A stretch of DNA of 64,000 nucleotides from Magnetococcales bacterium HCHbin5 (GTDB taxonomy: Bacteria > Pseudomonadota > Magnetococcia > Magnetococcales > Magnetaquicoccaceae). Shown piece after piece: positions 6,798-63,189 of this stretch (position 1 is the first letter of the stretch; the number at the start of each line of letters is the position of its first letter). The position numbers and the translations under genes are program-made. Location of the stretch: assembly GCA_002753505.1 (NCBI GenBank), contig PEAG01000002.1, positions 1 to 64,000 on the forward strand, read 5' to 3'. Under the pieces are notes generated by a model that was not told the origin of the DNA, did no database searches, and was given only the letters and a program-made list of their open reading frames with translations.

Positions 6798-9500
6798 ATG
6801 TTTAGTTCAATCGCCCGCAAAATTTTTGGATCCCGTAATGACCGCTACCTGCGGAAACTGCAAAGTGTTATCGAACATATTAACGCCTTGGAAGCGGATA
6901 TGGCGGCGTTGAGTGATAGTGCGTTGCAGGGCCAAACAGAACGTTTCAGACAGCGTCTGCGAGAGGGAGAGTCCCTGGACAACCTGATTCCCGAAGCCTT
7001 TGCCGTCGTGCGCGAGGCCAGCAAGCGAACCCTGGGCATGCGCCACTTTGATACCCAACTGCTGGGCGGGCTGGTCCTGCACCAGGGTAAAATCGCTGAA
7101 ATGCGCACCGGGGAAGGGAAAACCCTGGTGGCCACGCTGCCCCTCTACCTGAATGCCTTGACCGGCAAAGGGGTGCATCTGGTGACGGTCAACGACTACC
7201 TGGCCCAGCGGGACTCCGCCTGGATGGGAAAAATTTATCGTTTTCTGGGCATGGAGGTCGGGGTCATCATCCATGGTCTGGACGATGAGGAGCGGCGGGA
7301 GGCCTATAATGCCGACATTACCTACGGCACCAACAACGAGTTCGGGTTTGATTTTTTGCGCGACAACATGAAGTTTACCCTGGAAGAGTTGGTGCAACGT
7401 CCCCTCCATTACGCCATTGTCGACGAGGTGGACTCCATTTTGATTGATGAAGCCAGAACCCCCCTGATCATTTCCGGTCCCACAGAAGACAACACCGACA
7501 AATATTATCGAGTGGATCGCCTGATACCCTCACTGCAAAAAGATATCCATTTCACCATCGATGAAAAAACCCGTACGGTGGTCTTCACCGAGGAGGGCAG
7601 CGAAAAAATAGAGTCCCTGCTGACCGAACATGGCATTCTCAAGAGCGGCAACCTCTATGACATCGCCAATGTGGAGACGGTACACCATGTCAACCAGGCC
7701 CTCCGCGCCCATGCCCTGTTTGAAAAGGACCGGGACTATATTGTCAAGGATGGCGAGGTTGTGATCATCGATGAGTTTACCGGACGCATGATGCCGGGAA
7801 GACGCTATTCGGACGGCCTCCATCAAGCCCTGGAGGCCAAAGAGCAGGTGGTGATCCAAAACGAGTCGCAAACCCTGGCCTCCATCACCTTTCAAAACCT
7901 GTTCCGCCTCTATGACAAACTGGCAGGCATGACCGGCACCGCCGACACCGAAGCCTCCGAATTTGAATCCATCTATCGGCTGGAGGTCATCATTCTCCCC
8001 ACCCATCGACCCATGATACGCAAAGACCACGATGACGTGGTTTTTCGGACCCATGAAGAAAAACTGACCGCCATCCTGGAAGAGGTGCGAAGCTGTCACC
8101 AGGAGGGTCAACCCATTCTGGTGGGAACCATCTCGATCGAAAAATCGGAGGAGTTGGCCCGTCGCCTGCGCAAAGAAAAGATACCCCATACCGTACTGAA
8201 TGCAAAATTTCACGAACAGGAGGCGGAAATTGTCGCCCAGGCCGGCCGCAAATATGCGGTGACCATTGCCACCAACATGGCCGGACGCGGAACCGATATT
8301 CAATTGGGGGGCAATCCCGACATGCGCATCCTGCGGGAAATTCCCGCCGATACCCCCCAGGCAGAAAGAGAACAACGGGAAGCAAAAATTCGTGCGGAAG
8401 CGGCGGCGGAAAAAGAGGAGGTGATCCGCCTGGGGGGGCTGCACATTGTCAGCAGCGAACGCCACGAGGCCCGCCGGATCGACAATCAGCTGCGGGGTCG
8501 CTCCGGTCGCCAGGGAGACCCGGGTTCCAGCCGGTTTTATCTCTCTTTGCAAGATGATCTGATGCGGATCTTTGGTTCAGAACGCATGGATGGCATGTTA
8601 CAGAAACTGGGGTTGCAGGAGGGCGAGGCCATCATCCACCCCTGGATCAACCGGGCCATCGAGTCGGCCCAGAAAAAGGTGGAAGGCCGCAACTTTGACA
8701 TCCGCAAAAATTTGCTGAAGTATGACGATGTCATGAATGAACAGCGCAAGGTCATCTACGAACAGCGGCTGGAAATCATGCAAAGCGAAGACCTGGCCAG
8801 TTTTATCGAGGATTTGCGGGAGGAGTTGCTGGAAGCAATCGTAACTGAAACTGTTCCAGAAACCGCTTTGCCGGAAAATTGGCAGTTGGAGGAGCTTTCC
8901 AACGGCCTGGTACGGCAATTTGCTGTCCATCTGCCGGAGATTGAGGCGTGGCGTACGGAGGATGGGGTCACCACCAAGGTCATCATGGAACGGGTAAAAA
9001 CCGCTGTCATGACCCATGCGCAAGAGCGGGAGGAGCGTATCGGGGCCTCACTGATGCGATACCTGGAAAAGACCATCCTGTTGCAGGTGCTGGATTCGCT
9101 CTGGAAAGAGCATCTGCTCAACATGGATCACCTGAAGGAGGGGATCCATCTGCGCGGCTACGCCCAGAAAGATCCCCTCAACGAATACAAGCGTGAAGCC
9201 TTTGAACTGTTTGACGGCTTGCTGGAACGGATCAAGGTGGAGGTGCTGGAGGTGTTGTGCCGGGTTGAGGTCTCCCGTCCGGAAGAGGTGGAACAGATGG
9301 AGGCGGAACGGGCCGCCGTCCGGGACCGTAAACTCTCTTTGCAACATGAGGAGTATGATTCCTGGTCCGGGGAGGAGGGTGAGACGGAATCAGACGGCAA
9401 AACCCCTTATCGGCGGGATGGCGAGAAGGTGGGTCGTAACGCGCCCTGTCCGTGTGGCAGCGGTAAAAAATTTAAACACTGCTGTGGTCAGTTGGTTTAG
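6798..9500 (+). CDS. secA: Preprotein translocase ATPase SecA
   Basis: A 900-residue SecA, the motor that drives unfolded preproteins through SecYEG. Visible features are the N-terminal [12 protein letters not shown], Walker [17 protein letters not shown], the DEAD-type [15 protein letters not shown], the preprotein cross-linking region, [18 protein letters not shown] in the second nucleotide-binding fold, and the terminal zinc/SecB-binding motif [14 protein letters not shown]. The length is normal. The start at 6798 is chosen because AAGGAA precedes it and the usual SecA N-terminus begins there; an in-frame ATG 49 codons upstream would add an unrelated sequence. The promoter at 6730-6758 lies just upstream. 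Confidence 0.98.
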
Positions 9501-48674: not shown

Positions 48675-48746
48675 TCAGGGTTTTTCCTCCAGCAATTCAA
48701 ACAGACCGTACAGGGTACGCATCACCCAGACAATGGGCCACCCACC
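48675..48746 (-). pseudogene. Remnant: last 23 codons of a VOC-family gene
   Basis: Reading the minus strand, this stretch encodes GGWPIVWVMRTLYGLFELLE followed by EKP and a TGA. It corresponds residue for residue (three nucleotide differences in 66, plus a changed stop) to the end of the intact VOC gene at 62767-63189. No start codon or earlier part of the gene is present; upstream it runs into an unrelated ORF. It is a scar marking the left edge of the defence region. Confidence 0.85.
48681..48746. repeat. 66-bp direct repeat, left copy
   Basis: tttttcctccagcaattcaa and the bases following, to cccacc, match 62773-62838 at 63 of 66 positions in the same orientation, offset 14,092 bases. The similarity stops abruptly at 48747. 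The two copies bracket the whole defence operon. Confidence 0.92.
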
Positions 48747-48747
48747 A

Positions 48748-48846
48748 TCACAACGGATCCCGTTCCTGGAGTGGTCCTTCATCCTCAATGTCCGGGAAGT
48801 CCGGAATTGCTCCCGCAAAACGGTCGAGAAATTCCTTTGTTGTCAT
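48748..48846 (-). pseudogene. Truncated small ORF, possibly the start of an acyl-carrier-protein gene
   Basis: A 32-residue ORF starting MTTKEFLDRFAGAI and ending in LQERDPL, with a strong ribosome site (AGGAGG eight bases before the ATG). The acidic helix followed by a loop resembles the first half of the short acyl carrier proteins found beside fkbH genes. The phosphopantetheine serine region would come next but is missing, because the frame ends exactly at the VOC remnant. A truncated gene is therefore more likely than a functional micropeptide. Identity as ACP is an inference from a very short segment. Confidence 0.45.
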
Positions 48847-48911: not shown

Positions 48912-51900
48912 TCATCCCACCTCCCTCCGCTCCAACCGATCCCACGCCGCCAACACCAACCGGGCAGTGCGGTATTCACCGAATGCTTTCATCTCATTGT
49001 TTTTGAGACCGCGAAAAGTCTCGCTGGGATAGTCTGGCCCCATGGCATCTGCCGGGTCGAGGATGTAGCGCAGTTCATCGCGGGTGAGTCCGTAGAGCCG
49101 GGCGTAGTAGGCATCCAGTTCTGCCCGCAGGTGGGCGCGGCGGTCGGGATCCCAGCGGAAGGGTGGGCCATGGTAACCCAGATCCTCGGCAAAGGGTTTC
49201 AGGTCGTGGGCGGTGTAGACAAGTTCTAGAACACGAGTCCGTATAAAATCAATATCAACCTTGGTGTATAATCCAGGAGCTAGGACAGGAAATTGGCTGA
49301 CAGTAAAAAAGGTTAGGTGCAATCCACCTACCTTGTGTCGGGCAAAATAATCGAAAATAATGCTATTCATATTGGCTAACAGAAGGTCACCGCTAGGTCC
49401 ATCGAAATTGTCAAATTTCATCACGGGAAGAGTATGTCCAACGCCTACACACGGTATGGCAGAGCAAATAACCGTTCTTTCATTTGTGGCAGAAGTAATA
49501 TCCTTGAAGGAGAGAAACCATTTCTTGTCCCAGAAACGGCGGATGCGCTCTAATACATCTTTCTCTTGCACCCAATAGAAAGGGGATGCGCTGTATTCTG
49601 GGTCAATGTATGCTTCCAAGGGAGTTTGAGGAAGCACGCGGTACCCTCGGTCAGCACTCCTTGTTTCAAATGAGCCTGCCCGGTGGTCGAAAAAATTGAT
49701 CATCTTCGCCTCATACAACGGCACCCAAACCTCCCCCGCCGCATCCAGCCATTTCACCCCCTCCCGCACCGCTCTCATTTCCGCCAACTGCTCCGCCGTG
49801 CGGAACAGGCCGCTGTCGTTGGACATGTCCAACATGCGCATAAACTTGATGCCCCACGGATTGCCTTGATCGCCTTTGGTTTCATCAATCAGAACCGGCA
49901 CGTTTCGATAAATTTTTTTGGTCAGTTCCGCATCCCTCTTGCTGCGAAACACCGGGCAGGTGCGGGTGTTGGGATTGATGAGGCGGATATCTTCGGCTGA
50001 CAGGGTGAACTGTCGTTCCGGCTCCAATAAATGTTCCGCCCGGGTGGCGAAAAAGGTGAAACGTGTGGCCGGAATGCGGTTGCCCAGGGTGAGCAGGGCA
50101 AATTTGAAGCTGCGATGCACTCCTGTAAAGATTGCCTCCCGATTCTCGAAATCCAGCAGGCTGACCAGTCGCCCCCCCAGGGAGACGGCCTCAAAATATT
50201 TTTTGGTGGAATCATCGGTGGCAATGCCCGTGGGAACGATAAACCCAGCCCGACCGCTGGAGGATTGCAGGTTGAGAAACAGTTCCGCAAACAGGGCATA
50301 GGTATTGACATCTCCGCAGCCGGTTAACGGGAATCGTCCGCTTGTGCGGCAAAACTGGCTGGTTGCCTCGGCCTGCCGTTTGGCGGCATTGAACGCATCC
50401 AGCAGGGAGTATGGTTGGGTCGATGCATTGGAAACCAACGCCTGGATCAATTTTTCCCTGGCCGCCTTGTTGGGTGCCCGGGCTATTTCTGGAGCCCGTT
50501 TATCAAAAAACTCCTGCTCCTGGAGCTTGATCCGCTCCCACGGCGGATTGCCCAGCATCACATCAAACCCACCCCGCCAGCCCATGGCGTCGTTGTCCGC
50601 TTTTTCATCCTTGGTCACTGGGCGAAACAGCTCCGGGAACTCCAGGTGCCAGTGGAAAAAACGGTACTCTCCTGCCAGATGCTGGATGTCTCTTTTGAGA
50701 GGGTTGGGCACATCATGGGGATTGCGTCGAATGCGGCGGAAAAGCTCTTCGGTAATCCCGGGTGCAAAGGGATCGTTCTTTTTGATCACGAAGGCAGCGC
50801 ACCAAGTGTCGGCCAGAAAACGGCCTGAGAGATAGCCACCGGAGCGGACATGTTCCGCATAACGCCGTTTTTGTTCTGCCACTTCGCCCAGGGTATCGGC
50901 GGGCAGGGTGTTCAGGTTCAGCATGGAGGTGGCCAAATTGCCCAATTGTTCCCAGGGATACGGTTCCTCTCGGAACAAAGAAACCATCTTGTGTTGGCGT
51001 TGCTCTTTGTTGCGTTTTTTCAGCACAGTACAGACCTTCTTGTCGTCTCCCGTGACCGGTTCAAACGCTGCGTCAGGAATACCGGCCTCAAGGGCCACCG
51101 GCGTGGCCCCCACCAGGGAATCGCCGCACTTGATGCGATGATCCAGGAAGGTCAACGGCTTGCCCGGTTCCAGAGCCTCAACCCACAAGGCGGTTTTGCA
51201 GAGTTCCACCGCCAGGGGATTCTTGTCCACCCCATAAATGCAGTGGCGCACCACCTCCCGCAGGGCGTGTTGTCGTTGCTGCTCGCCAGGGGTGTCAAAA
51301 CCCGCCTGCAGTCGGGATATTTCTGCTGCCAATCGCCGGGCGGCGGCCAGCAAAAAATGACCGCTGCCACACGCCGGATCACAGACCTTGAGGTTCAAGA
51401 TGGCCCCCACCGGATCGGTGGGATTGTCCCGCACGGCCCGTTCCAACACCGGCTCCAGGGCCGATTTGATCAACTCATTGACCAGACTGGGCGGGGTGTA
51501 ATAGCTGCCGGTGAGCTTGCGCTCCGAACCGGTGCCGCTCTTCTCCTCCGCTGCATCCCCCACAAAACCAAACTGCCAGGGCGAGGCCTCTACATCGATG
51601 CGCGGGTGCAACTCCAGCAGGCTTTCATAGACCGAACCCAACTCTTCGGTTCCCATATCGCGATAGTTGATGCGAGAGGTGGCCTGACCGGACTGGAAAA
51701 AGCTCAAGGCGCGGATGGCCGTCAGCAAGCGGGCATTGTCCATTTCCGCCACATCCAGTCGGGGGCATTGGTCGATGTCGAATAGGCCACCCAGGGCGGG
51801 CAAGGCCAGAGGAATGGCACCTGATGCCAATCCCCGAAACGTGATACACAGTCCCTGCCAAAGATCAGAATGCCGGTCATAGTGGCGTTTTTTCAGAGCC

Positions 51901-52901
51901 TTGTCCCGCAGTCGCGCCAGGGCATAGCCTTCCCGATAGAGCTGAATGGCCTCTTTGTCGGCGTCGGTGGCATGAAGCAGGTTGCGCTCTTCGGCCTTGA
52001 AGAGAAAAAGCAGTCGGTAGACCAGACGCAGCAACTCCTGGAAAAATTCGGTCTCTTTGATCTCACCATCCGTCAGGGCCTGGCGCAACGATTGATTGGC
52101 CCGGTGTTGCAGAAAACCGTTGCCCAACGCCCGCAAGGCGGTGGTTACCCCCTGGCGCAGATTGGTCAGGGCGCGTTCGCCGGTCTCCTGGGCCTGCTTG
52201 CGCCATGTCTCCCAACAACAGTCGGCGGGTTTGTCGCCGCGGGATCTGCCCCGACTTTCGTGCAAGAGCAACCAGAAGGCGGCAAAATCGGAATAAAGCT
52301 GCTCCTGGAAAATACGTCCCAGGTCAGCCTCCACAAAGGTTGTTCGGGTCAGGCTGGGGTTCTCCCGCAACAGCCGAATTTTTTCGCCATTGGCCACCAA
52401 ACCCCACAAACATGCCTCCTCGGCATTGAGATACTCCTGGATCAGGGCATGGGGCGGGCGTCTGCGTCCTTCATCGCCAAAACGGGGATCCCCCTTGTCC
52501 AGGTCAAATTCCCACGTGGTCAGCAGAATGGGGATGGAGCCGCCGCAAGCCCGGTGTGACAGAGGAAACTGCCGATCCCCCAGGATGGCTGGCGGAGAGC
52601 GATCCAGATCCCGATAGCCCAACACCTGAAACAGGAAAGGCTCCAGCCACCCATAAATCCCAACCTTGACACTTCCCCTGTCCGTTATGCCCCGACGATC
52701 CGCATAGCTGGACCACAGATCCAGACCAATGCGCCAGTAGCGTCCAATCTCATCCCGGATGTTGAGAGATTTGGAGATGTCATAATTGGCGGGGGTTTGG
52801 TCGGGCGCACCCATGGCGGCCACCTTTTGCAGAAACTCCGGCGGCAGAATGTTGCCCTCTACCCTGAGAGCGGTGAAACCGTGGTCCGCATTTTTTCTCA
52901 T
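48912..52901 (-). CDS. Eco57I-like adenine-specific DNA methyltransferase of a DISARM-like operon
   Basis: A 1329-residue protein. The N-terminal 400 residues are a helical region. Methylase motif I CDPACGSGHFLLAAARRL lies near 505 and the catalytic motif IV in VMLGNPPWERIKLQE near 780. A C-terminal target-recognition-type region follows (GNPWGIKFMRMLDMS; WFLSFKDITSATNERT). NPPW indicates N6-adenine methylation. The size and layout match DrmMI-type or Eco57I/PglX-like enzymes of defence systems, which mark self DNA. No PD-(D/E)XK nuclease motif was spotted in this protein. The start overlaps the HIRAN gene's stop (ATGA); it is the last gene of the operon. Confidence 0.88.
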   Translation of the reverse strand: MRKNADHGFTALRVEGNILPPEFLQKVAAMGAPDQTPANYDISKSLNIRDEIGRYWRIGLDLWSSYADRRGITDRGSVKVGIYGWLEPFLFQVLGYRDLDRSPPAILGDRQFPLSHRACGGSIPILLTTWEFDLDKGDPRFGDEGRRRPPHALIQEYLNAEEACLWGLVANGEKIRLLRENPSLTRTTFVEADLGRIFQEQLYSDFAAFWLLLHESRGRSRGDKPADCCWETWRKQAQETGERALTNLRQGVTTALRALGNGFLQHRANQSLRQALTDGEIKETEFFQELLRLVYRLLFLFKAEERNLLHATDADKEAIQLYREGYALARLRDKALKKRHYDRHSDLWQGLCITFRGLASGAIPLALPALGGLFDIDQCPRLDVAEMDNARLLTAIRALSFFQSGQATSRINYRDMGTEELGSVYESLLELHPRIDVEASPWQFGFVGDAAEEKSGTGSERKLTGSYYTPPSLVNELIKSALEPVLERAVRDNPTDPVGAILNLKVCDPACGSGHFLLAAARRLAAEISRLQAGFDTPGEQQRQHALREVVRHCIYGVDKNPLAVELCKTALWVEALEPGKPLTFLDHRIKCGDSLVGATPVALEAGIPDAAFEPVTGDDKKVCTVLKKRNKEQRQHKMVSLFREEPYPWEQLGNLATSMLNLNTLPADTLGEVAEQKRRYAEHVRSGGYLSGRFLADTWCAAFVIKKNDPFAPGITEELFRRIRRNPHDVPNPLKRDIQHLAGEYRFFHWHLEFPELFRPVTKDEKADNDAMGWRGGFDVMLGNPPWERIKLQEQEFFDKRAPEIARAPNKAAREKLIQALVSNASTQPYSLLDAFNAAKRQAEATSQFCRTSGRFPLTGCGDVNTYALFAELFLNLQSSSGRAGFIVPTGIATDDSTKKYFEAVSLGGRLVSLLDFENREAIFTGVHRSFKFALLTLGNRIPATRFTFFATRAEHLLEPERQFTLSAEDIRLINPNTRTCPVFRSKRDAELTKKIYRNVPVLIDETKGDQGNPWGIKFMRMLDMSNDSGLFRTAEQLAEMRAVREGVKWLDAAGEVWVPLYEAKMINFFDHRAGSFETRSADRGYRVLPQTPLEAYIDPEYSASPFYWVQEKDVLERIRRFWDKKWFLSFKDITSATNERTVICSAIPCVGVGHTLPVMKFDNFDGPSGDLLLANMNSIIFDYFARHKVGGLHLTFFTVSQFPVLAPGLYTKVDIDFIRTRVLELVYTAHDLKPFAEDLGYHGPPFRWDPDRRAHLRAELDAYYARLYGLTRDELRYILDPADAMGPDYPSETFRGLKNNEMKAFGEYRTARLVLAAWDRLERREVG

Positions 52902-53623
52902 AGCGTTCTACCGACTTCAAGGAACACGTAAACCAGGGGGCGGTCCTCCGTGCCATTGATGCGGTCAATAAATCCACGAACCCCAGGAATCTCCAACCAG
53001 CGATGCAGACCAGGGGCCTGCAGCTTGTTGACAAAACCAATAGGGCGGCCATCCAGCAGTTCGATCCGAATCGCCAATGGATCATGGGGATTATCTGGAT
53101 CTGCCCGCAACTGAATCTCCTGCCCGTTACTGAGCAGCGGAAGGACTTTTTTAAAACCTTCTATATGACGGAATCCGGCCACCTCCTCCAGAAATTCAAA
53201 CGGCGGTTTTGCCGTATCAAACGGATGAACCAGGGAGAATCCATCTCCGGGCAGTTGCGCACCCACATAACCCAGCAAAGCCAGGGGGCTGATTGGAATG
53301 GCGGGATCGAGCCGCCAAAATCGCAGGAAGTCATCATAGTCCCGCCTTTTCTTTGGAGGCATACGCCGCATGAAAATTTCCAAAATGCCAGAGGCGTGTT
53401 GATCCAGGTCCAGCGGAAAGGCCGGATAGCCCAAAAAACCAGCGGCCAGGGCCTCTTCAAAATCTTCTGTTCCTTTCAGATAGCGCAAAACAATAGTACC
53501 CGTTTCCTCTGCAGCGATTTCCGCCACTTTCCGCCGAGTTCGACCGGAAGAACTACCATCCGGGGCTTGCCAAGCCAGAAATAGGTGCTTTGGCTCAATA
53601 ATGTGTCGAATTGTGTTGATCAT
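52898..53623 (-). CDS. HIRAN-domain protein in the defence operon
   Basis: A 241-residue protein. The C-terminal 90 residues match the HIRAN domain (GFRHIEGFKKVLPLLSNGQE; LRADPDNPHDPLAIRIELLD; GRPIGFVNK), which in HLTF-type proteins binds 3' single-stranded DNA ends. The N-terminal 140 residues are less clear; they contain GTIVLRYLKGTEDFEEA and RMPPKKRRDYDDFLRFW, like HIRAN proteins encoded next to HipA-like kinases. A role in recognising stalled or damaged phage DNA is conceivable. The ATG at 53623 is favoured by AGGGA upstream and sits four bases after the kinase stop. It is coupled to the methylase by ATGA. Confidence 0.78.
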   Translation of the reverse strand: MINTIRHIIEPKHLFLAWQAPDGSSSGRTRRKVAEIAAEETGTIVLRYLKGTEDFEEALAAGFLGYPAFPLDLDQHASGILEIFMRRMPPKKRRDYDDFLRFWRLDPAIPISPLALLGYVGAQLPGDGFSLVHPFDTAKPPFEFLEEVAGFRHIEGFKKVLPLLSNGQEIQLRADPDNPHDPLAIRIELLDGRPIGFVNKLQAPGLHRWLEIPGVRGFIDRINGTEDRPLVYVFLEVGRTL

Positions 53624-53627
53624 GACT

Positions 53628-54569
53628 TCAATCCCTGCTGGTGAGAACCGCACGTAACCGCTCTATTCGGACACGGAGGAGGCATTCGATCCATTGGATC
53701 CGTTCCAACGTGGGTACGACAGGTACGGGAAAATTTGGCAATACGCGCATCCAAGTATTTAAGACATCCATGTCAAACGCAAGGCACCCGAAGAGGTTCT
53801 GCCTTAATCCTGGATATTGATTGAGCAGCCACTTAATCAGATCAAAATGGCCACACTTTTTGTCCTCGGTTTGGTTCCAGCGCATGTGGTGCTGCCCCTT
53901 CTCGATATAGCGTTTTGTTTGCGCCGGGTCCGATACGAAGCTGACAATCTTGTCATCCAATATTTCATGCCCGAGGCTCGTGCCATTGTCGAAAGCCGGA
54001 GCCAATTCCGGTCTTGGCGGTGTACCTCTCCACAAAATCCCCCAGTTTCCCTGGTGACGGTCGGTGTTGCCGATCAGTGCATCGAAAACAAGAATGCGCG
54101 CCATATCTGGGATCAATCCTGCATCAATTTCTGAAAGAATCTTCAACACGGTTAAAATGTTGTGCTGGCACCCCTTCTTGACGTCAAAATTTGGAATCAG
54201 CCTTTTCATGTGGACAGTACCCGGCTCGTAGCGCACATTTTTATCATCCCGACGGTAAAACCATTCGATTAAGGCGGCAGATTCGTTACTTTTTGACTTC
54301 CAGGCAGCATAGGCCGGAGGAACGGAAATTCCCATCAGGCATCCCAAACGGTAGGCAATTACCTCACACCAAAATTGGGCCGGATGGCGACGTGATGCGT
54401 GTTTGAACAGGTAACGATGCCCGCCAATCAAGAACGGCAAGGGTGGAGATTGAGGGCTGATCCATAAAGACTTCTCTCGGGTACCTTCAGGGTAGGCGGG
54501 GAACCGATCATCTGGATTCCAGGATGAAATATCAATAACCTCTGAAGCCAGTTGCGCATGTCCTGACAT
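53628..54569 (-). CDS. HipA-like kinase in the defence operon
   Basis: A 313-residue protein with the HipA-type kinase core: LVFDALIGNTDRHQGNWGIL (catalytic loop, near 158-178) and LAPAFDNGTSLGHE (metal-binding Asp, near 187-200). PFLIGGHRYLFKHASR, near 45-60, may hold the ATP-binding lysine. HipA enzymes phosphorylate protein serines (for example glutamyl-tRNA synthetase) and cause growth arrest. Here it lacks a HipB antitoxin partner and lies inside a helicase-methylase operon, which suggests an effector or regulatory role in defence. GAGGAAG precedes its ATG; it starts nine bases after the SNF2 gene. Confidence 0.8.
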   Translation of the reverse strand: MSGHAQLASEVIDISSWNPDDRFPAYPEGTREKSLWISPQSPPLPFLIGGHRYLFKHASRRHPAQFWCEVIAYRLGCLMGISVPPAYAAWKSKSNESAALIEWFYRRDDKNVRYEPGTVHMKRLIPNFDVKKGCQHNILTVLKILSEIDAGLIPDMARILVFDALIGNTDRHQGNWGILWRGTPPRPELAPAFDNGTSLGHEILDDKIVSFVSDPAQTKRYIEKGQHHMRWNQTEDKKCGHFDLIKWLLNQYPGLRQNLFGCLAFDMDVLNTWMRVLPNFPVPVVPTLERIQWIECLLRVRIERLRAVLTSRD

Positions 54570-54578
54570 AAATCTTCC

Positions 54579-57419
54579 TCAAAAAGCCACGGCGGGGGCC
54601 AGGACGTAGAGGCCAATCACATCCACCGGCAGGCAGGCTTTGACCTCATAACTGCCCCTGGCTTCACTGGCGTCCCGCACCCGCCGATGGTCTGCCAGGA
54701 GTTCGTTGGCGCGCGCATGGGCAATTTGACTGAAGGCTGGTTGCAATGGCTCCACCCCCTGTTTGGCCATTTCGATCATCTGAGTCTGCTGGCCGGGATC
54801 CATGTTGCGGGCGGGTTCCAACTGCATCAGCGACAACGCATCCCGCTCCGGCAATACTCTGAGAGTGCTGGAACCCTCCACCGCCACCCCCAGACACTCC
54901 TCGGAGAGCAAGGTTTTGCTGTGAAGCAGACGGTTTCCCTCACGCCGTTCGATGATCAACTGGCTGCGCAAACGAAGCAAAAAGACCGTGGTGCGGATCT
55001 GGACCCCCTGGGTAAAGATGGCCCCGCAGCGGGCGGCCAGCTCCGGTTCCTCTTCGTCCAAGGCGCGTTCGGCTACATATTCCGCCAAAGTGGCCACCAG
55101 GGGATGGGTACGGTGGATGTAGGCGACACCGGATGGGGCCGGGTGGGTAAAGGTGATGCGGGTATTGTCCAACAGATCGACGGCAGCCAAACGTTCCCGC
55201 AACGGGGGTACAAGATGCTGAAGCGGAAAGCGGAAATGGTTGCGGACCGCTTCCAGGGGGGCACCCAGACGCTCCGCTGCCCTCCGCACAAAACGGGCAA
55301 CATCAGCCTCACCCCCCAATACCTGAACGGCCTTTTCCCATTCGGGCAACACCTCATCGGGTTTTAACCGCCGTTGGGCAAAGAGGGCTTGGCTCTGTTT
55401 GGCCTTTTCCTTGGCACTCTCCCAGGCCATCTCCACCTCCTGATCCAGTTCATCGAACGGAAGCAAGAGTTGCTTGTGCCCTTGCATCTGGTTGCCTTTT
55501 TTTAACAAGACCGTTTGCATAATGGCATCCATCACCTTGTTGCTGTCCGAGGGCATGGGCACGGAGACACCCAGCTCCTTGCGGATACGTTCGGCCTTGC
55601 GCAGGATTACCTGGAGGACCGCGCCATCGACGGGATTGTTCGCCCCATAATACATGAGAACGCGCACCCTGGGAGAGGGTTGGCCGAACCGGTCCACCCG
55701 GCCCTCCCGTTGCTCATGGCGGGTGGGATTCCAGGTCAGGTCATAGTGGACGACAGCATTGAACAGGTTTTGCAGGTTGATCCCTTCGCTGAGGCAGTCC
55801 GTAGCCACCAGCAACCGTTTGTCAAACTCCCTGAGACTTTGGACCTTCTCTTCCCGTTCTTCCGGGGCCAGCTCCCCGGTGACGGCCATCACCTGCACAC
55901 CTTCCCGCTGGAAGGCGGACTGGAGCTGCTCCGCCACATAATGGGCGGTGGCGATGTAGCGGCAAAAGACCACCGTCTGAAAGCCATCTGCCAGCAGTTT
56001 TTTTAATTGCACCAGCAGTTCCGCCAGCTTGGGATCCTGGCGCGCACCCTTCAACTGTTCGGCCCTTTGGACCAGTTTTGCCAGCTCCTGCCGCTCCTCC
56101 ACGGTGCCCGCCGGAATGCTCTCATCCAGGCTCAAACCCTCTTCCGCATCGCCATCCAGTACGGTTTCTGCAGCCCTTTTTTCCAGGTTGACGAGTTGGC
56201 TCTCTTCGGACTCTGCACCGGCAGCCTGCATCCGGGTGCGTAACGCCAGGCTCGCTGCGGCGGGACTGCTGCCGATGCAGCGGAGCAACGCCAAGGCTGC
56301 CCACCAGCTCATGCGCTGTTTCAACAGGCTCAATCCTTCGGCCTGCTGGACCATTTGCCGGGCATGGTGCAAAACATCATCAAACAGCTTTTTCCAGTCA
56401 CCCGTCAGAAGGTAGGTGGTCTCCGCCGACTCCCGATCCGGGAAGAGCGTAGAGTCCTGCCACTCCCGGATATCCGGTCGCCGCCGTTGTACAAAATGGC
56501 GGGCCAGCTCTTCACGCAATCCTTTGCGGTCGGAGGGGGGGGAACCCTGGAGAGCTTTGAATTCAGGCCGCAACAGGCCAAGCAGATTGTAAAACGCCTC
56601 CTCATCGCCGCTGTGGGGGGTGGCGGTGAGAAAGATCATGTGCCGGTTTGGATCATCCGCCAGCCCCTTCAACAACTGGTATCGCTGATGACGGGCGTTG
56701 GCACCACTGCGAACCGAACTGTGGGCCTCCTCCACGATGACCAATTCCGGGCAGGCGCGCAGAAACTCATCCCGACGCCGATCCGCCTTGATATAATCCA
56801 GGGAGACAATGGTGAAGGGATAGACCTCGAAGATTGACTGGCCAGCCATCAGCCCCCGTTCCAACCGTCCGGCGGTGCCGGTACGAACCACTTCCGCCTG
56901 GATGTTAAATTTGGAGAGCAGTTCCTGTTGCCATTGTTCACACAGATGCGGTGGGCAGATCACCGTCATCCGTTCCACCTCGCCCCGGTCCAGCAGTTCC
57001 CGCATGATCAAGCCCGCCTCAATGGTCTTGCCGATACCGACATCGTCGGCGATGAGCAGGCGTACCGTTGCCAGCCGCAGGGCCATGAGCAGCGGCACCA
57101 ACTGGTAGGCCCGTGGTTCCACACCGAGGTTGCCAAAGCTGCGAAAGGGCCCCGCCCCGGCCCGGAGAGTGAGGCGCAAGGAGTCCCGCAACAAGAGCGC
57201 GGCGGTTTGGGAACCCGCCTTGGTCGCATCCGGCAGCGTAAAGGTGGCCGACACCGGCAGGGTCGGTTCGAGGGGCAGAAAAAGGATGGTGGCATCTTCC
57301 TCACTGCCACCGAGAGGGCGCAGACGCAGAACTTGGTCCCGGCTTTCCGCCAGAACCACCCACTCCCGTCCCCTGGCTCGCACCAGACTGCCGGGCTGAA
57401 AGCTTTCGGCCATGCTCAT
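54579..57419 (-). CDS. SNF2-family helicase (DrmD-like)
   Basis: A 946-residue superfamily 2 ATPase. Residues 1-100 form a small beta-rich domain (SLVRARGREWVVLAES). Walker A is ADDVGIGKTIEAGLIM (near 123-138), motif II is LVIVEEAHSSVRSG (near 225, EEAH instead of DEAH), and motif III is FLTATPHSG. The second lobe has TVVFCRYIATAHYVAEQLQ and HEQREGRVDRFGQ (near 570). The C-terminal region is long and helical. This type matches DrmD of class 1 DISARM and other SNF2 remodellers of R-M-like systems. The start at 57419 forms an ATGA overlap with the giant helicase; a frame extension to 57473 lies inside that gene. Confidence 0.88.
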   Translation of the reverse strand: MSMAESFQPGSLVRARGREWVVLAESRDQVLRLRPLGGSEEDATILFLPLEPTLPVSATFTLPDATKAGSQTAALLLRDSLRLTLRAGAGPFRSFGNLGVEPRAYQLVPLLMALRLATVRLLIADDVGIGKTIEAGLIMRELLDRGEVERMTVICPPHLCEQWQQELLSKFNIQAEVVRTGTAGRLERGLMAGQSIFEVYPFTIVSLDYIKADRRRDEFLRACPELVIVEEAHSSVRSGANARHQRYQLLKGLADDPNRHMIFLTATPHSGDEEAFYNLLGLLRPEFKALQGSPPSDRKGLREELARHFVQRRRPDIREWQDSTLFPDRESAETTYLLTGDWKKLFDDVLHHARQMVQQAEGLSLLKQRMSWWAALALLRCIGSSPAAASLALRTRMQAAGAESEESQLVNLEKRAAETVLDGDAEEGLSLDESIPAGTVEERQELAKLVQRAEQLKGARQDPKLAELLVQLKKLLADGFQTVVFCRYIATAHYVAEQLQSAFQREGVQVMAVTGELAPEEREEKVQSLREFDKRLLVATDCLSEGINLQNLFNAVVHYDLTWNPTRHEQREGRVDRFGQPSPRVRVLMYYGANNPVDGAVLQVILRKAERIRKELGVSVPMPSDSNKVMDAIMQTVLLKKGNQMQGHKQLLLPFDELDQEVEMAWESAKEKAKQSQALFAQRRLKPDEVLPEWEKAVQVLGGEADVARFVRRAAERLGAPLEAVRNHFRFPLQHLVPPLRERLAAVDLLDNTRITFTHPAPSGVAYIHRTHPLVATLAEYVAERALDEEEPELAARCGAIFTQGVQIRTTVFLLRLRSQLIIERREGNRLLHSKTLLSEECLGVAVEGSSTLRVLPERDALSLMQLEPARNMDPGQQTQMIEMAKQGVEPLQPAFSQIAHARANELLADHRRVRDASEARGSYEVKACLPVDVIGLYVLAPAVAF

Positions 57420-60400
57420 GGCGTGTTTCCCTGTCCAAAGATAAAGCGATGCGCCTGGATTATGGCCCGCCATGCCGATTGTTCCTTGGGAAACCGCACG
57501 ACGGTCAGCCCGGCATCCCGCAGGTTGCTGGTGGTCTGGGCGTCCAGTTTGCTCTGGGTGTTGCCTTCATGGTGCGGTCCATCGATATAAACAAGGGCCT
57601 GTTTGTCGGAATAACCGAAATCCGCCCGGGTGTTGAATGCCTGGAGTAACGGTTGGGCACGATCGGGCAGGTTGTAGCCATGGTCGCGCAAATAGAGCAA
57701 CCATGCCCGCTCCAGCGAAGAGACAGAGGCGTTCAGGAGGCTCTGTAAAATATCATTCAGGGAGTGGCCCGATTGCCCTTTTTCCGTTTGACAACGGGTC
57801 AGACGGCAGAGCAGGTCCAGTACCTGGACATTATTGCGGTCGATCAACGCATGTTCAGGCTGATTATAATAACTGAGCAGGCAACGATAGCAACCGGCTT
57901 CACAATTTTCGTTGGTGTCCACGAGATCGGCGTGATTATGCCACTTCCCTGAGCCAGAACGGAAATGGAGAATCTCCAAGGCTTGTCTTGCCACCTTGCG
58001 CACAGCTTTCGGGTCCGAAACCAGACGGGTCAGGACGCCTGCTCCCCCCTCGGCCGACTCATAAAACAGGATGGCATTGCGGCGACCCCGTTCTGGCAAG
58101 GGCTCAGCCGCCAGTTCGCTCTCCTCCAGTTGGAAGGTCGCTTCGATGCCCCGTTTGAAGGCGTATTGCAAGGTGACCATTGCCGCCTCATCCAACAGCA
58201 TTTTGGACTGCACGATCAGAATATTGCGGCGATCTTCCACATAGGGCGTGATGCGTTGGATCGATTTTCCCTGTTCCAGAGTATCGTCCACATCTTCCGG
58301 GGCTTGGGCATCCTTGGACCAGATGCCGCTGGCCACGTCAATGTTGAAGCCATGGATGGATTTTTCCTTTCTGCGCCGCCACCCCAGATTGATCCGCCAC
58401 AGGGCAGCGGTCGGTCCATAGCGGACAGTCAGCAACGCATCATCGCCTGCCGAAATCTTGAGTGAGGTAAAGCAGGGCAGGCCATTCTGCTCGGCATAGC
58501 GAAATGTCGTGGCGGTTTCATAGCCCTGACGTTGCCGTTCCTCCTCGTCGGAGGTGATACGGTTGGCCCGCCGGGTGCTGACCTGCTCAATGCGGTACAG
58601 GTCGATCAGGTTGCGCCCTCCCTCCAGGGGGTTGGTACAGTTAACGCACAATTCAAACGCTTTCTGGTCACCAAAGTGCCCATAACCACAGGCCGGGCAA
58701 AGCCGGGCACTCTGGACCGGAAGGGTGGCCGAGGTGGAAACGTTCTCCTCATCCTTGATACCGAGGATAGCCTTGCGCACACGGTAGGTACTGCCTTCAT
58801 GGTAGATGATGGATTGTGGCCCAAACTCAGACAGTCCCAGGAAACGCGGGCGACTCAGGAAGGCATCACGCCCGACCTTTTCCCGGCGACCTGGAATAAA
58901 GGCCATCAAAGGGAGACGGGGAAAATTATAACCGGGCAAAAACCCCTGACTGGCCAAAAATCGGTAGGTGTAAAAATCGGAATTCATGCTGGCCCTGGCG
59001 TCCAGCAGCAGATCCTGCTGAATCCGGGCTTCGTCGTACCGTTGTTTGGCCTCCTTGCGGTCCTTTTCCGTGGCCGCCGCATTCATCTGGACAGCATGGC
59101 TTTTTTCCATCTGCCTGGCTGTGGCGCGATACAGGGAACGCCAGCGATCAAAAGCCTGATTGAATTGGCGGAATGAGGCGTTGATAATGTTGCCCTGCCA
59201 CTCCGGGCTGTACCAGGGAGCTGCGTCAGGGGTCAACTCATTCTCGACCATGGCCAGTATGGCAATGGCACGTTTGGCAGCCCGCTCACGCACCGGATGC
59301 GTGTCCATGCAGGTTGCCAGATCCTGTCTCACTGGCAGCGTATCCGGTTTTTCCAGATCCAGCGACTCCTTGACCGAGCTGCCGAGCTTTTGACCGGTCT
59401 CTGCCAGCCATACCGCGTGGAGGTGGCTTTTGATCAACTCTTCGTTGGCCAAATCGATCATGGGGGGGTTGACACTGCCAGTCACCATGCGGGCCGGGTC
59501 GGCAAAAAAATATTGATCATGGGGAGAACGGGCTGCGCAGTAGGTGATGACCAGGGCCGGTTGCCCGCTGCGCCCGGCCCGCCCGCTGCGTTGGGCATAG
59601 TTGGCAGGTGTCGGTGGTGTGTTGCGCATGAAAACGGTATTCAGGGCCGAAATATCAACACCGAGTTCCATGGTGGGTGAACAAAACAGTACAGGCAGCT
59701 TGGCGGCTCGGAATGCCTCTTCCCGTTCTTCGCGGGTGGTGTTGTCCACCTGGGCAGTATGTTCCCTGGCTTCCAGTTGGTGCAGGAAGCGATCCTCATC
59801 TTGAAGCTGTTGGGCAACATTCTGGTAGAGGGTACGGAAAAAGGCGTTGTCACTCTCCTTGAATCCTCTGGCAGACGAGGCAGCTGTTGGATTCTGGTTC
59901 AAGGACCACTCCAAAACGGTTGCCCCAACGCGATATCCCCGCTGGCCGTGATTCATCTCAACCGGCTCGACCAGACCATAGAGCTCCAGCACCCGGAGCA
60001 TGTCGTCGATCAAGGTGTTGTGGATATTGTCATCAAACTTTTTGGGATAATCGGGGGTTCCGGCCCCCCATGTCGCCTGGCTCTTCAAACGGGTACCAAA
60101 TCGGGAACGATAGGAGATGTGGACAGTCGGAGGGTCAAGCCTGGCTGACGGAGATTTTGGACGGGGAATCATGATGGTTGCGGCCACCGGACTCTCATCC
60201 TCCGACAAACCCCAGGGTTCCTTCAAATCTGAAAAACTGCGGTTGCGAACCTGCTCCAGGTAATGGGTATCGAGGTAGATGGTCTTGATGGCCAAACCAC
60301 GGCGCATGGTATCGAGCAACTCCTGAAGCAGCGATTCCCGGAGTTCCGGAGTTGCATGGGCCAGCAGTGGGTGCGAGAGGGACCATGCGTTTTGGTCCTG

Positions 60401-62647
60401 GGCACACTCTTTGAGGGACTGGTACCGAATTTTGAGCAGGCACAGTTGCTCCAGATTGGGATTCGTGATGCGCCAGCCCCGGCGCAGATCGTGATACAAC
60501 CGATAGCCTATCACATCACGCAGGGTTTTCTGGGTGTTCTGGGCCTTGGCTCCCTTGGCCTCCGGGTTGGAGGAATAGTCGTCTGGCACCAGACGCAAAT
60601 GTTCCACCACCCGTTGGGTCAGGGTATCATCCCGCAACACTCCGTCCGGTTCATTCTTGATGGCGGCCAGCAGGGCACCCCGCAGGAGCAAAATCTGGAT
60701 AAAATCGTTAAAATGTCCAGCCTGCAATGAAGCATCCTGTCGATTATCGCTGAACCCGAGCAGTTTTTTGGCCTCTTGTCCCAATCCTTCCGCCTCACAC
60801 AGCAAATATCTGAGTGCTATCATGGTGAGTATGGTCGTTGCGGAACTGCGTCCCTCACTGCTCAGGGAGGAGAGTTTGGTCAGGTCACTGCGTATACTGC
60901 CGTCATAGCTTATGCCGCAATCGGGATGGAGGCAAAAGCGGAAGGATCCGGGGATATACCAACCGGGCATGCCATCAGCCTGAGACTCACCCTTGGTACT
61001 GACCTGCAAAGGAATGGGACGGTAGCGGCGATAGTAGGGTCTCAAACGCGCCTCGCCACTCTCGAAATCAAGCCACTCCTCAGGAAAATGCGCCTCCATG
61101 CCCTGTGGGTTAAACAGGCCATCCGGGTCAGGCATAAAAAAACCGGACTGTACGCTATCCTCCTCGCTGGCGCGCTCGGACAACTCGCGCGGAGCGATGG
61201 CAGTCACGTGTCGGTTCTCGGTGGTGGCCCAAACGGGCAGATATTCCTGCCCACACTCCCGACAAAACACGCTGTTGAACAGGAGCTTGTTGCGCTCCCC
61301 AGGCTGAAATTGCTGGCCATCAACAGTCAGGTAGCGGCGTCCCGCAGGCTCAAGAGTGGTGAACAGATTGCCCGCTCCGGCAATAAATTGATGCAATCGG
61401 AACGCGAACAGCGGCTGTCCTTGGGCATTCTTGGTATGAAAAGCGAGCAGGAGAAAGCGGGCCAAATATGTCTCACAGTTCCCCAAGGGGAGATTGGTTG
61501 CAACAGCAAGCTGCTCAGCCGCCTGAAGCACTGTTTTTGGCTGGGAGGTGCGCCTGAGTTTGCCATCGGGCAGCCCGCCCGCCTTTTCCAGACCCAGATT
61601 TGTTTCCACCCAAATGGCAAGCGGATGACGGCTTAATGCCTCGTAGGAAGGCGAATCCGGTACCCCATTTGAGATGGCCAGGGCCAGATCCTGAAGCGGA
61701 ACCGCACCAGGCGTTACCCGTTCCAACGTTTCGGTCACGACATTGTCTGGTTTCACCACAGAACCAAACAACCGGCTGGCCACCTCTGCCACCACCCGGC
61801 TGCGCTCTGCGGGCGTTCCCTCGGTGGTCATGGTGGCCGAGGTTCCGACGCACAGGAGATCGGCATTGAGTCGTTCCCGTACCCGTCTGACCAGTAGGGC
61901 AACATCGGCTCCCTGCCGACCACGGTATGTATGCAGTTCATCAAGCACCAGAAAACGTAGCCCGGCTGCATGCTTGATGACAGCCTGATCGGGAGGATTG
62001 TGACGGGTCATGATCAATTCGAGCATGACATAGTTGGTCAGGAGAATGTCAGGCGGGCATTCAGCAATTTTCTGACGATCTTGCTCGGACTCCTGCCCTG
62101 TGTAGCGGGCGAAAGTGACAGGTTCCTGGTTGGGTGCATAACCCACGTGGAGAAACCTCTCCAACTCCTCCTTCTGGCTGTTGCAAAGGGCATTCATCGG
62201 GTAAACCACAATGGCCGAGATGCCCACCTGTTTTTTTACCGCTTTCTGACGCAGGACGTGGTCAACGATGGGGATGAAATAGGCGAGAGATTTGCCGGAA
62301 CCCGTTCCGGTCGTCAAGACATAACTCTCCCCCTGTTGGGCAATGCGGATAGCCTCTTCCTGATGCTTGTGTACCCTCATCGGAATGCCGAGGGAACCAG
62401 GCTCCTTCCGGGTGCGGAAAATGTTCCGGCATTCCGGGTGCAGGAGTCCCTCGGCGACCAGATCGTCAATCCAGCCTCCCGACACAAAACTTGGGTTCAG
62501 CTGGATGAGAGGGGCTGGCCAGAAACGGCCTTTTCCATACACCTTATCGACATAAGCCTTCATGTCGCTGGCCAGGATTTTGGTAAAACTGCGGGAGAAT
62601 TGCTCGTATTGATCGATCAATTTTTTTCGGAACTCGAACACGTCCAT
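57416..62647 (-). CDS. Giant DEAD/DEAH helicase with DUF1998-like cysteine clusters and nuclease-like C-terminus
   Basis: A 1743-residue protein, first gene of the defence operon. Walker A TTGTGSGKSLAYF is near 112-124 and motif II VLDELHTYRGRQGAD near 234-248. The second lobe has CSPTMELGVDISAL and motif VI YAQRSGRAGRSG (near 1010-1022). The DUF1998-type region carries CPACG...CVNC (near 1320-1340) and CEAGCYRCL (near 1577). The last 110 residues contain ADFGYSDKQALVYIDGPHHE, a Vsr/DUF559-like PD-(D/E)XK nuclease pattern. It looks like DrmA helicase, DrmB DUF1998 and a nuclease in one chain; Druantia DruE is another relative to consider. GGGAG precedes the ATG. No promoter was assigned. Confidence 0.88.
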   Translation of the reverse strand: MDVFEFRKKLIDQYEQFSRSFTKILASDMKAYVDKVYGKGRFWPAPLIQLNPSFVSGGWIDDLVAEGLLHPECRNIFRTRKEPGSLGIPMRVHKHQEEAIRIAQQGESYVLTTGTGSGKSLAYFIPIVDHVLRQKAVKKQVGISAIVVYPMNALCNSQKEELERFLHVGYAPNQEPVTFARYTGQESEQDRQKIAECPPDILLTNYVMLELIMTRHNPPDQAVIKHAAGLRFLVLDELHTYRGRQGADVALLVRRVRERLNADLLCVGTSATMTTEGTPAERSRVVAEVASRLFGSVVKPDNVVTETLERVTPGAVPLQDLALAISNGVPDSPSYEALSRHPLAIWVETNLGLEKAGGLPDGKLRRTSQPKTVLQAAEQLAVATNLPLGNCETYLARFLLLAFHTKNAQGQPLFAFRLHQFIAGAGNLFTTLEPAGRRYLTVDGQQFQPGERNKLLFNSVFCRECGQEYLPVWATTENRHVTAIAPRELSERASEEDSVQSGFFMPDPDGLFNPQGMEAHFPEEWLDFESGEARLRPYYRRYRPIPLQVSTKGESQADGMPGWYIPGSFRFCLHPDCGISYDGSIRSDLTKLSSLSSEGRSSATTILTMIALRYLLCEAEGLGQEAKKLLGFSDNRQDASLQAGHFNDFIQILLLRGALLAAIKNEPDGVLRDDTLTQRVVEHLRLVPDDYSSNPEAKGAKAQNTQKTLRDVIGYRLYHDLRRGWRITNPNLEQLCLLKIRYQSLKECAQDQNAWSLSHPLLAHATPELRESLLQELLDTMRRGLAIKTIYLDTHYLEQVRNRSFSDLKEPWGLSEDESPVAATIMIPRPKSPSARLDPPTVHISYRSRFGTRLKSQATWGAGTPDYPKKFDDNIHNTLIDDMLRVLELYGLVEPVEMNHGQRGYRVGATVLEWSLNQNPTAASSARGFKESDNAFFRTLYQNVAQQLQDEDRFLHQLEAREHTAQVDNTTREEREEAFRAAKLPVLFCSPTMELGVDISALNTVFMRNTPPTPANYAQRSGRAGRSGQPALVITYCAARSPHDQYFFADPARMVTGSVNPPMIDLANEELIKSHLHAVWLAETGQKLGSSVKESLDLEKPDTLPVRQDLATCMDTHPVRERAAKRAIAILAMVENELTPDAAPWYSPEWQGNIINASFRQFNQAFDRWRSLYRATARQMEKSHAVQMNAAATEKDRKEAKQRYDEARIQQDLLLDARASMNSDFYTYRFLASQGFLPGYNFPRLPLMAFIPGRREKVGRDAFLSRPRFLGLSEFGPQSIIYHEGSTYRVRKAILGIKDEENVSTSATLPVQSARLCPACGYGHFGDQKAFELCVNCTNPLEGGRNLIDLYRIEQVSTRRANRITSDEEERQRQGYETATTFRYAEQNGLPCFTSLKISAGDDALLTVRYGPTAALWRINLGWRRRKEKSIHGFNIDVASGIWSKDAQAPEDVDDTLEQGKSIQRITPYVEDRRNILIVQSKMLLDEAAMVTLQYAFKRGIEATFQLEESELAAEPLPERGRRNAILFYESAEGGAGVLTRLVSDPKAVRKVARQALEILHFRSGSGKWHNHADLVDTNENCEAGCYRCLLSYYNQPEHALIDRNNVQVLDLLCRLTRCQTEKGQSGHSLNDILQSLLNASVSSLERAWLLYLRDHGYNLPDRAQPLLQAFNTRADFGYSDKQALVYIDGPHHEGNTQSKLDAQTTSNLRDAGLTVVRFPKEQSAWRAIIQAHRFIFGQGNTP

Positions 62648-62766
62648 CAGGCAATCTCCCGATGCAGCCGATACGACTTGTTTGCAGGAAAAAAAGAGAC
62701 GATGCCCCTCATTCCCAACCCCTCACGGGAACCAGTCTAACGCAATTCAACGATTGAAAACAGGCC

Positions 62767-63189
62767 CTAGGTTTTTTCCTCCAGCAATTCAAACAGACCG
62801 TACAGGGTACTCATCACCCAGACTATGGGCCGCCCACCCAGGGCAACAGCCGGTTGTGGTTTGGAGATGGGCAAAAAGCCGTGGGTACGGCACCGACGCA
62901 GGCTTTCCGACAAGTCGGGCACGGAGTAGCACAGGTGCAGCAACTTGACCCCCTTTTGCAGGCTGAGTGCCACGGGGGATTGCGCATCCCATGGCTCCAC
63001 CAACTCCAGCAATTGATCGTGGATGCGCACAAACGCGACCCGTACCCGCTGAATGGGATCATCCACGGCAACCCCGGCTCCACATACGGATTCGATGGAG
63101 GCCGTCACCAAACCGGTATGGTGATAACGGGCACCGGGACCGAACAGATCCAACGCCTGGATGGGTAGATCCACGGAATGAAAGGTCAT
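62767..63189 (-). CDS. VOC-family (glyoxalase/methylmalonyl-CoA-epimerase-like) protein
   Basis: A 140-residue protein with two beta-alpha-beta-beta-beta modules. It has RYHHTGLVTASIES (first metal His), VRVAFVRIHDQLLELVEP (Glu), KLLHLCYSVPDLSESLRRC (His) and TLYGLFELLE (Glu), the ligand pattern of metal-dependent VOC enzymes. Its ATG overlaps the stop of the fkbH-like gene (ATGA), so both act in one pathway, perhaps in making or using an unusual acyl unit for glycan or natural-product synthesis. The precise reaction is unknown. Its last 23 codons are duplicated at 48675-48746. Confidence 0.8.
   Translation of the reverse strand: MTFHSVDLPIQALDLFGPGARYHHTGLVTASIESVCGAGVAVDDPIQRVRVAFVRIHDQLLELVEPWDAQSPVALSLQKGVKLLHLCYSVPDLSESLRRCRTHGFLPISKPQPAVALGGRPIVWVMSTLYGLFELLEEKT
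62773..62838. repeat. 66-bp direct repeat, right copy
   Basis: This copy lies inside the 3' end of the intact VOC-family gene and matches 48681-48746 at 63 of 66 positions, same orientation. The start of the defence operon lies 125 bases to its left. Confidence 0.92.

Follow-up and report, generated by a model that had tools for sequence, protein, structure and literature searches.

A probable nested HipI-HipN-type toxin-antitoxin module at the armA/armB junction of a Magnetococcales ARMADA type I operon

ARMADA is defined, in the sections of the Bell et al. 2025 preprint drawn on here, by a YprA helicase that carries DUF1998 and a Vsr nuclease in the same protein, followed by BrxHII-like and PglX-like genes (PMC12458937). 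In type I the genes run in the order YprA, BrxHII-like, PglX-like, with the Vsr-type nuclease at the C terminus of the first, and the helicase is nearest to that of Druantia; in the same sections, E. coli ARMADA type II, the sole ARMADA tested, requires all of its genes and protects without cell killing, that is, non-abortively (PMC12458937). Toxin genes within restriction loci are a known theme in the portions of the literature considered here (PMC3506569, PMC6265443, PMC12839542), and in 2012 Makarova and colleagues put forward a coupling of immune loci with suicide genes and observed that typical antitoxins seemed not to be encoded in immunity loci (PMC3506569). A HipS-like domain joined to a HIRAN domain constitutes the HipN architecture, which is paired with HipI kinases and has been proposed as antitoxin (Gerdes et al. 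2021, PMC8262856); in actinobacteria, about one third of diDNase genes adjoin a HipA-HIRAN-type pair (PMC11706625).

Core genes and class assignment

We analysed a 64,000-nucleotide stretch of DNA from Magnetococcales bacterium HCHbin5 (the window), whose positions 48912-62647 are tiled by five minus-strand open reading frames of 1743, ~946, 313, ~241 and 1329 residues:

57416-62647, minus strand: ArmC, YprA-family SF2 helicase with fused DUF1998/MZB and a C-terminal Vsr-like PD-(D/E)XK nuclease, 1743 aa
57419-57868, minus strand: predicted nuclease domain of ArmC (C-terminal 150 aa), EDxHD (Vsr-type), catalytic set E/D/H/D intact
54579-57419, minus strand: ArmA, BrxHII/RapA-type SNF2 helicase, ~946 aa
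53628-54569, minus strand: HipA-like kinase, HipI type, PADLOC PDC-M03A, 313 aa, catalytic motifs intact
52898-53623, minus strand: HIRAN protein, HipN type, PADLOC PDC-M03B, N-terminal HipS-like and C-terminal HIRAN halves, ~241 aa
48912-52901, minus strand: ArmB, PglX/DrmMI-like adenine-N6 methyltransferase, 1329 aa, unsplit in the window

Two start sites were corrected: ArmA begins at 57419 rather than 57473, as it does in the relative L056, so that its start overlaps the stop of ArmC in an ATGA, and the HIRAN protein begins at the ATG at 53623 rather than the GTG at 53653. The junctions then read, in order, ATGA (57416-57419), 9 bp, 4 bp and ATGA (52898-52901), in keeping with the earlier proposal that the five genes form one translational unit. 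The operon is real and chance is excluded, because both ARMADA loci and the gene pair recur in other genomes.

Pfam confirms every domain named in the sequence-only reading, namely the helicase with DUF1998, the SNF2, HipA-like and HIRAN proteins and the adenine methylase. ArmC matches DEAD (1.9e-26), Helicase_C, MZB (6.5e-10, residues 1493-1590) and, weakly, a DUF559 nuclease; its best PADLOC matches are DruE3/DruE1, it is 70-93% identical to the ArmC proteins of seven other Magnetococcales, and the fusion of DUF1998/MZB to the helicase is a type I feature. In its tail, E53, D83, H100 and D109 are invariant in an alignment of 12 homologues from several phyla. The AF2 model of this tail (pLDDT 81) has as its top Foldseek match 3r3p (prob 0.99, with a weak E of 0.03), the structure of I-Bth0305I, which we take to be a Vsr-like EDxHD nuclease. 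The PD-(D/E)XK-like C terminus suspected from the letters alone is thus borne out as a Vsr-like (EDxHD) domain, predicted from residue conservation and fold to be active. No PLD domain was found in any of the five genes by Pfam domain search, in agreement with the sequence-only reading.

ArmA carries SNF2-rel_dom (1.2e-12) and Helicase_C (5.1e-21) and matches the DpdE, DrmD and BrxHII profiles of PADLOC. It scores below the curated NCBIfam cut-offs for both DrmD (NF038317, 346.7 bits vs 610) and DpdE (NF041062, 190.4 bits vs 500), and Dpd was rejected on the latter score despite the 707 bits reached with the PADLOC profile PDLC02853 "DpdE". ArmB matches Eco57I (1.6e-17; Eco57I/N6_Mtase) and the PADLOC DrmMI profile (5.6e-76). 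ArmC, ArmA and ArmB, all on the minus strand, follow the type I order with two extra genes between ArmA and ArmB. By domains and gene order, armC-armA-armB is assigned to ARMADA type I, whose criteria in the sections of the preprint used here also include the YprA phylogenetic clade and a BrxA-like insert after RecA1 (PMC12458937). The sequence-only reading had found the five-gene combination to match no named system; profile searches instead place its core in a system that is already known, ARMADA type I, named in 2025 (PMC12458937). Its further description as DISARM-related holds as to kinship, but not as a label, since the system has its own name.

The HipA-HIRAN pair and the armA/armB junction

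The HipA-like kinase matches HipA_C (1.3e-11), PDC-M03A (2.1e-44) and CtkA (2.8e-6), and its catalytic motifs GNTDRHxxNWG and AFDNGTSLG are intact. The HIRAN protein matches HIRAN in Pfam (6.4e-6) and PDC-M03B in PADLOC (6e-24); in Foldseek searches with its AF2 model (pLDDT 85.8), the C-terminal half matches the HIRAN domain of HLTF (3.2e-6) and the N-terminal half the Legionella HipS antitoxin (8ezr_A, TMt 0.65), as well as 7vkb_B. Taken together, profiles and models identify the two genes as a predicted toxin-antitoxin-type module of HipI-HipN architecture, listed by PADLOC as the candidate system PDC-M03, separate from and outside the ARMADA core. A literature search for PDC-M03 together with HipA or HIRAN returned nothing. 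Stand-alone HipA-HIRAN pairs are found in three genomes (G002, G036 and G242) and further pairs in four viral contigs (L199-L202), of which at least three have repressor-like genes next to the pair; HIRAN on plasmids gave one weak match only. In a separate observation, L057 holds a pair in an apparent filamentous-phage region, again adjoining repressor-like genes.

We compared eight Magnetococcales ARMADA type I loci, including that of the window (G000, G002, G018, G020, G027, G031, G039 and G047). The armA/armB junction holds a HipA-HIRAN pair in three of them (G000, G020, G039), representing three families, Phd-VapC in two (G002, G047), and, in one (G031), a DUF2281-type gene together with a VapC in opposite orientation; in the remaining two (G018, G027) it is empty, at 13-14 bp. 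G002 belongs to the same genus as the window and its ArmA is 93% identical, its slot holds Phd-VapC, and it carries its own HipA-HIRAN pair elsewhere. In the tree, the window pair groups with this stand-alone G002 pair (support 95/96), apart from the other nested pairs; a tree in which the nested pairs are monophyletic is disfavoured, without rejection (p-AU 0.09). Parsimony on a 16-locus tree requires at least seven changes of slot state. In G020, a 59-bp duplicate of the ArmA 3' end lies between the HIRAN gene and ArmB and is an insertion scar. The HipA kinase of the same locus contains an in-frame TAG, and the toxin may therefore be dispensable. Since sister bacteria hold different toxin-antitoxin pairs, or none, in the same slot, the system appears to swap toxin modules, and the armA/armB junction is, as far as comparison of these sequences can tell, an exchangeable toxin slot in Magnetococcales.

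Beyond the order, toxin-type genes occupy the junction in four of about 100 loci: Phd-VapC on a megaplasmid in Acidithiobacillus, AbiEii in one Thermoanaerobaculia and one Bacteroidetes locus, and a PIN gene in Spirochaetes; a few others hold AlbA_2 or other genes. About 24 added junctions from two Pseudomonadota orders yielded one AlbA_2-type gene and zero toxin-antitoxin pairs, and the one ARMADA locus in viral contigs has an empty junction. With the junction mostly empty outside Magnetococcales, the slot is not common to all ARMADA loci; in the loci compared, its use is the habit of one lineage, with scattered and independent cases elsewhere, rather than an ARMADA constant.

A site within ArmB and the borders of the block

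In three of the eight loci (G018, G039, G047) ArmB is split: the first part ends after ...KKIYRNVPVLIRE and the second restarts at M-x-x-x-NPWGIRFM. The gap is filled by a DUF2281-type antitoxin and a PIN/VapC toxin, the PIN protein of G018 differing from that of G039 and G047, and a third PIN toxin interrupts the ArmB of Methylobacter oryzae (L132) at this very codon. The window ArmB is whole; directly 3' of it lies an antitoxin remnant, MTTKEFLDRFAGAIPDFPDIEDEGPLQERDPL, which resembles KAFLDCCAGSIPDFPDMEDEGPLQEREWME inside the split ArmB of L056. The inserts and the features that border the window operon, of which the sequence-only reading had overlooked the 70-bp repeat and the antitoxin remnant, are as follows:

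L056 14129-14820, L093 16256-16973, L092 5168-5828 and L132 14844-15812: modules in split ArmB, DUF2281-type antitoxin and PIN toxin
48748-48846, minus strand: antitoxin remnant ORF, 32 aa, DUF2281-type antitoxin C terminus, directly 3' of ArmB
48677-48746, no strand assigned: distal copy of the 70-bp direct repeat, a duplicate of the tail (3' end) of a VOC-like gene, edge of the inserted block
62769-62838, no strand assigned: proximal copy of the 70-bp direct repeat, at the 3' end of the VOC-like gene, which is intact
62720-62770, no strand assigned: repeated sequence of ~51 bp lying between the VOC gene and ArmC, probably what is left of an IS end

The eight operons together contain six PIN genes vs 0.17 expected from genome-wide counts, a ~35-fold excess that assumes a 13.5-kb operon and ignores kinship, the independent cases alone numbering at least three or four. 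In G047, two of the three PIN genes in the genome lie inside its ARMADA operon.

Three kinds of side observation belong here. Four-helix-bundle (IVP-like) proteins are encoded in or next to ArmB at L174 13277-13785, L140 15814-16328 and L160 5969-6358, and the L174 gene overlaps an open ArmB frame. In a Deltaproteobacteria MAG (L185 6785-8998), an ORF of 737 aa, part of it RelE-like, sits between ArmC and ArmA and may be connected with the RelE-fused ArmD of ARMADA type II. Finally, the G020 genome carries, besides L055, a second, distant ARMADA-like helicase pair (L099, contig C139; ArmC 33% and ArmA 44% identical).

The block as a whole is bounded by the 70-bp direct repeat, whose copies are 94% identical and represent the 3'-terminal part of the VOC-like gene. 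This is the same kind of gene-tail duplication as that of the ArmA tail in G020, and it looks like the trace of the insertion of a ~14-kb block. The ~51-bp sequence has 88% identical copies in G010 and G029 (L059 at about 7545-7594 and L060 at 66-116); the G010 copy adjoins a transposase ORF and a serine-recombinase gene, and the sequence is probably an IS end. When relatives were searched for the VOC gene beside an unoccupied site, no close genome proved to have kept this neighbourhood.

A nested growth-arrest module: proposed mechanism, rival readings and known systems

We propose that the window holds an ARMADA type I operon into which a HipI-HipN-type toxin-antitoxin module (PDC-M03) was inserted at the armA/armB junction, where it forms a nested second, growth-arrest line, and we give this reading a probability of roughly 0.7. 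ArmA, ArmB and ArmC would act jointly as a direct DNA-restricting complex in which ArmB marks or senses DNA and ArmC unwinds and cuts it. HipN, as modelled, would keep the HipI kinase inactive via its HipS-like domain and may probe DNA ends via HIRAN; HipI would be freed when the DNA ends of an infection titrate HipN, when restriction by the core does not hold, or when operon expression fails or the operon is lost, and would then phosphorylate a translation factor and stop growth. The nested module would therefore serve both as a second, growth-arrest line and as an addiction layer that makes the operon costly to lose. Against this reading stands the non-abortive action of the one ARMADA tested, type II of E. 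coli (PMC12458937); the sequence-only reading, too, had suggested a possibly abortive system. A broader form, in which the ARMADA type I of some lineages has two fixed bays, at armA/armB and between the methylase and target-recognition halves of a split ArmB, that swap HipI-HipN, Phd-VapC and DUF2281-VapC as second-line suicide or addiction modules, is put forward tentatively, at somewhat under even odds.

The most serious competing explanation, which we nevertheless regard as less likely, is that the modules are neutral or selfish passengers which persist through tolerated sites, addiction and a shared transcript and contribute nothing to ARMADA function. Their decay is consistent with this, as seen in the in-frame TAG of the G020 HipA and the antitoxin remnant at 48748-48846, as are their absence from most loci, the four-helix-bundle inserts in other ARMADA loci (L140, L160, L174) and the free-living HipA-HIRAN pairs of prophages and chromosomes. 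The precision of the insertions argues against it, however: ATGA coupling is kept, two exact sites recur, including the same ArmB codon in two classes, and PIN genes exceed their genome-wide density in the operon by the factor given above, kinship again being ignored.

More doubtful still is an integrated five-gene system with an indispensable arm in which HIRAN senses the DNA ends produced by the helicase-nuclease and signals to the kinase. Co-transcription across junctions of 4 bp and ATGA, the intact kinase motifs, a HIRAN fold like that of the DNA-end-binding HLTF and the retention of the pair in three families would fit such a system, but the pair is absent from five of the eight close relatives, Phd-VapC takes its place in the nearest relative of the window, and HipA-HIRAN occurs without ARMADA. 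HipA-HIRAN was rejected as an obligatory ARMADA component on the evidence of relatives without the pair. HipA and HIRAN are not conserved with the other three genes, which the sequence-only reading had itself named as a refuting condition: the pair is present in 3 of 8 Magnetococcales loci and in 0 of about 100 others. The kinase and DNA-end-sensing arm of that reading is a fair description of the pair itself, which behaves as a swappable passenger of the operon and not as an integral part of it. That the operon is a DISARM class 1 or Druantia variant and not ARMADA is highly improbable: the DrmMI and DrmD matches in PADLOC and DruE as best match of the large helicase point that way, but DISARM class 1 was rejected because DUF1998 is fused, leaving no separate DrmB, there is no PLD DrmC and the DrmD score lies below its cut-off (as does that for DpdE), and Druantia because neither DruH nor any other Druantia gene stands beside the operon.

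HipA, HIRAN or any kinase receives no mention in the main text of the ARMADA preprint (PMC12458937), and nested HipI-HipN modules and exchangeable toxin slots in ARMADA appear undescribed in the literature searched, which covered few preprints. The loci compared here contain complete toxin-antitoxin pairs within an immunity operon, with close relatives apparently swapping different pairs at a site that is the same to the base, and the near-identical natural operons (empty, HipA-HIRAN or Phd-VapC) constitute a direct test set for the coupling of immunity and suicide.

Among known systems, pneumococcal tvrAT (PMC6265443) and the BREX nuclease effectors (PMC12839542) likewise place toxin-antitoxin-like or RNase genes between restriction or methylase genes; they belong to other host systems, and the parts of those reports considered here do not describe a single fixed junction where module families replace each other. 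DISARM class 1 shares a homologous SNF2 helicase, adenine methylase and YprA helicase, whereas the window has neither a separate DrmB nor a PLD DrmC. ARMADA type II shares ArmA, ArmB and ArmC and has a toxin-like domain of its own, RelE fused to ArmD, but differs in gene order, carries the toxin on a fourth helicase and has no HipA. HipI-HipN (PADLOC PDC-M03), likened here by architecture and PDC-M03A/B profile matches, likewise places a protein with HipS-like and HIRAN domains after a short HipA kinase, but the window pair sits inside a defence operon and is not free-standing. Closest is ARMADA type I itself, which agrees with the window in its trio of core genes and their order, in a YprA helicase that bears both fused DUF1998 and the Vsr nuclease and resembles DruE, and in having no PLD; what sets the window apart is that its armA and armB are separated by the HipA and HIRAN genes.
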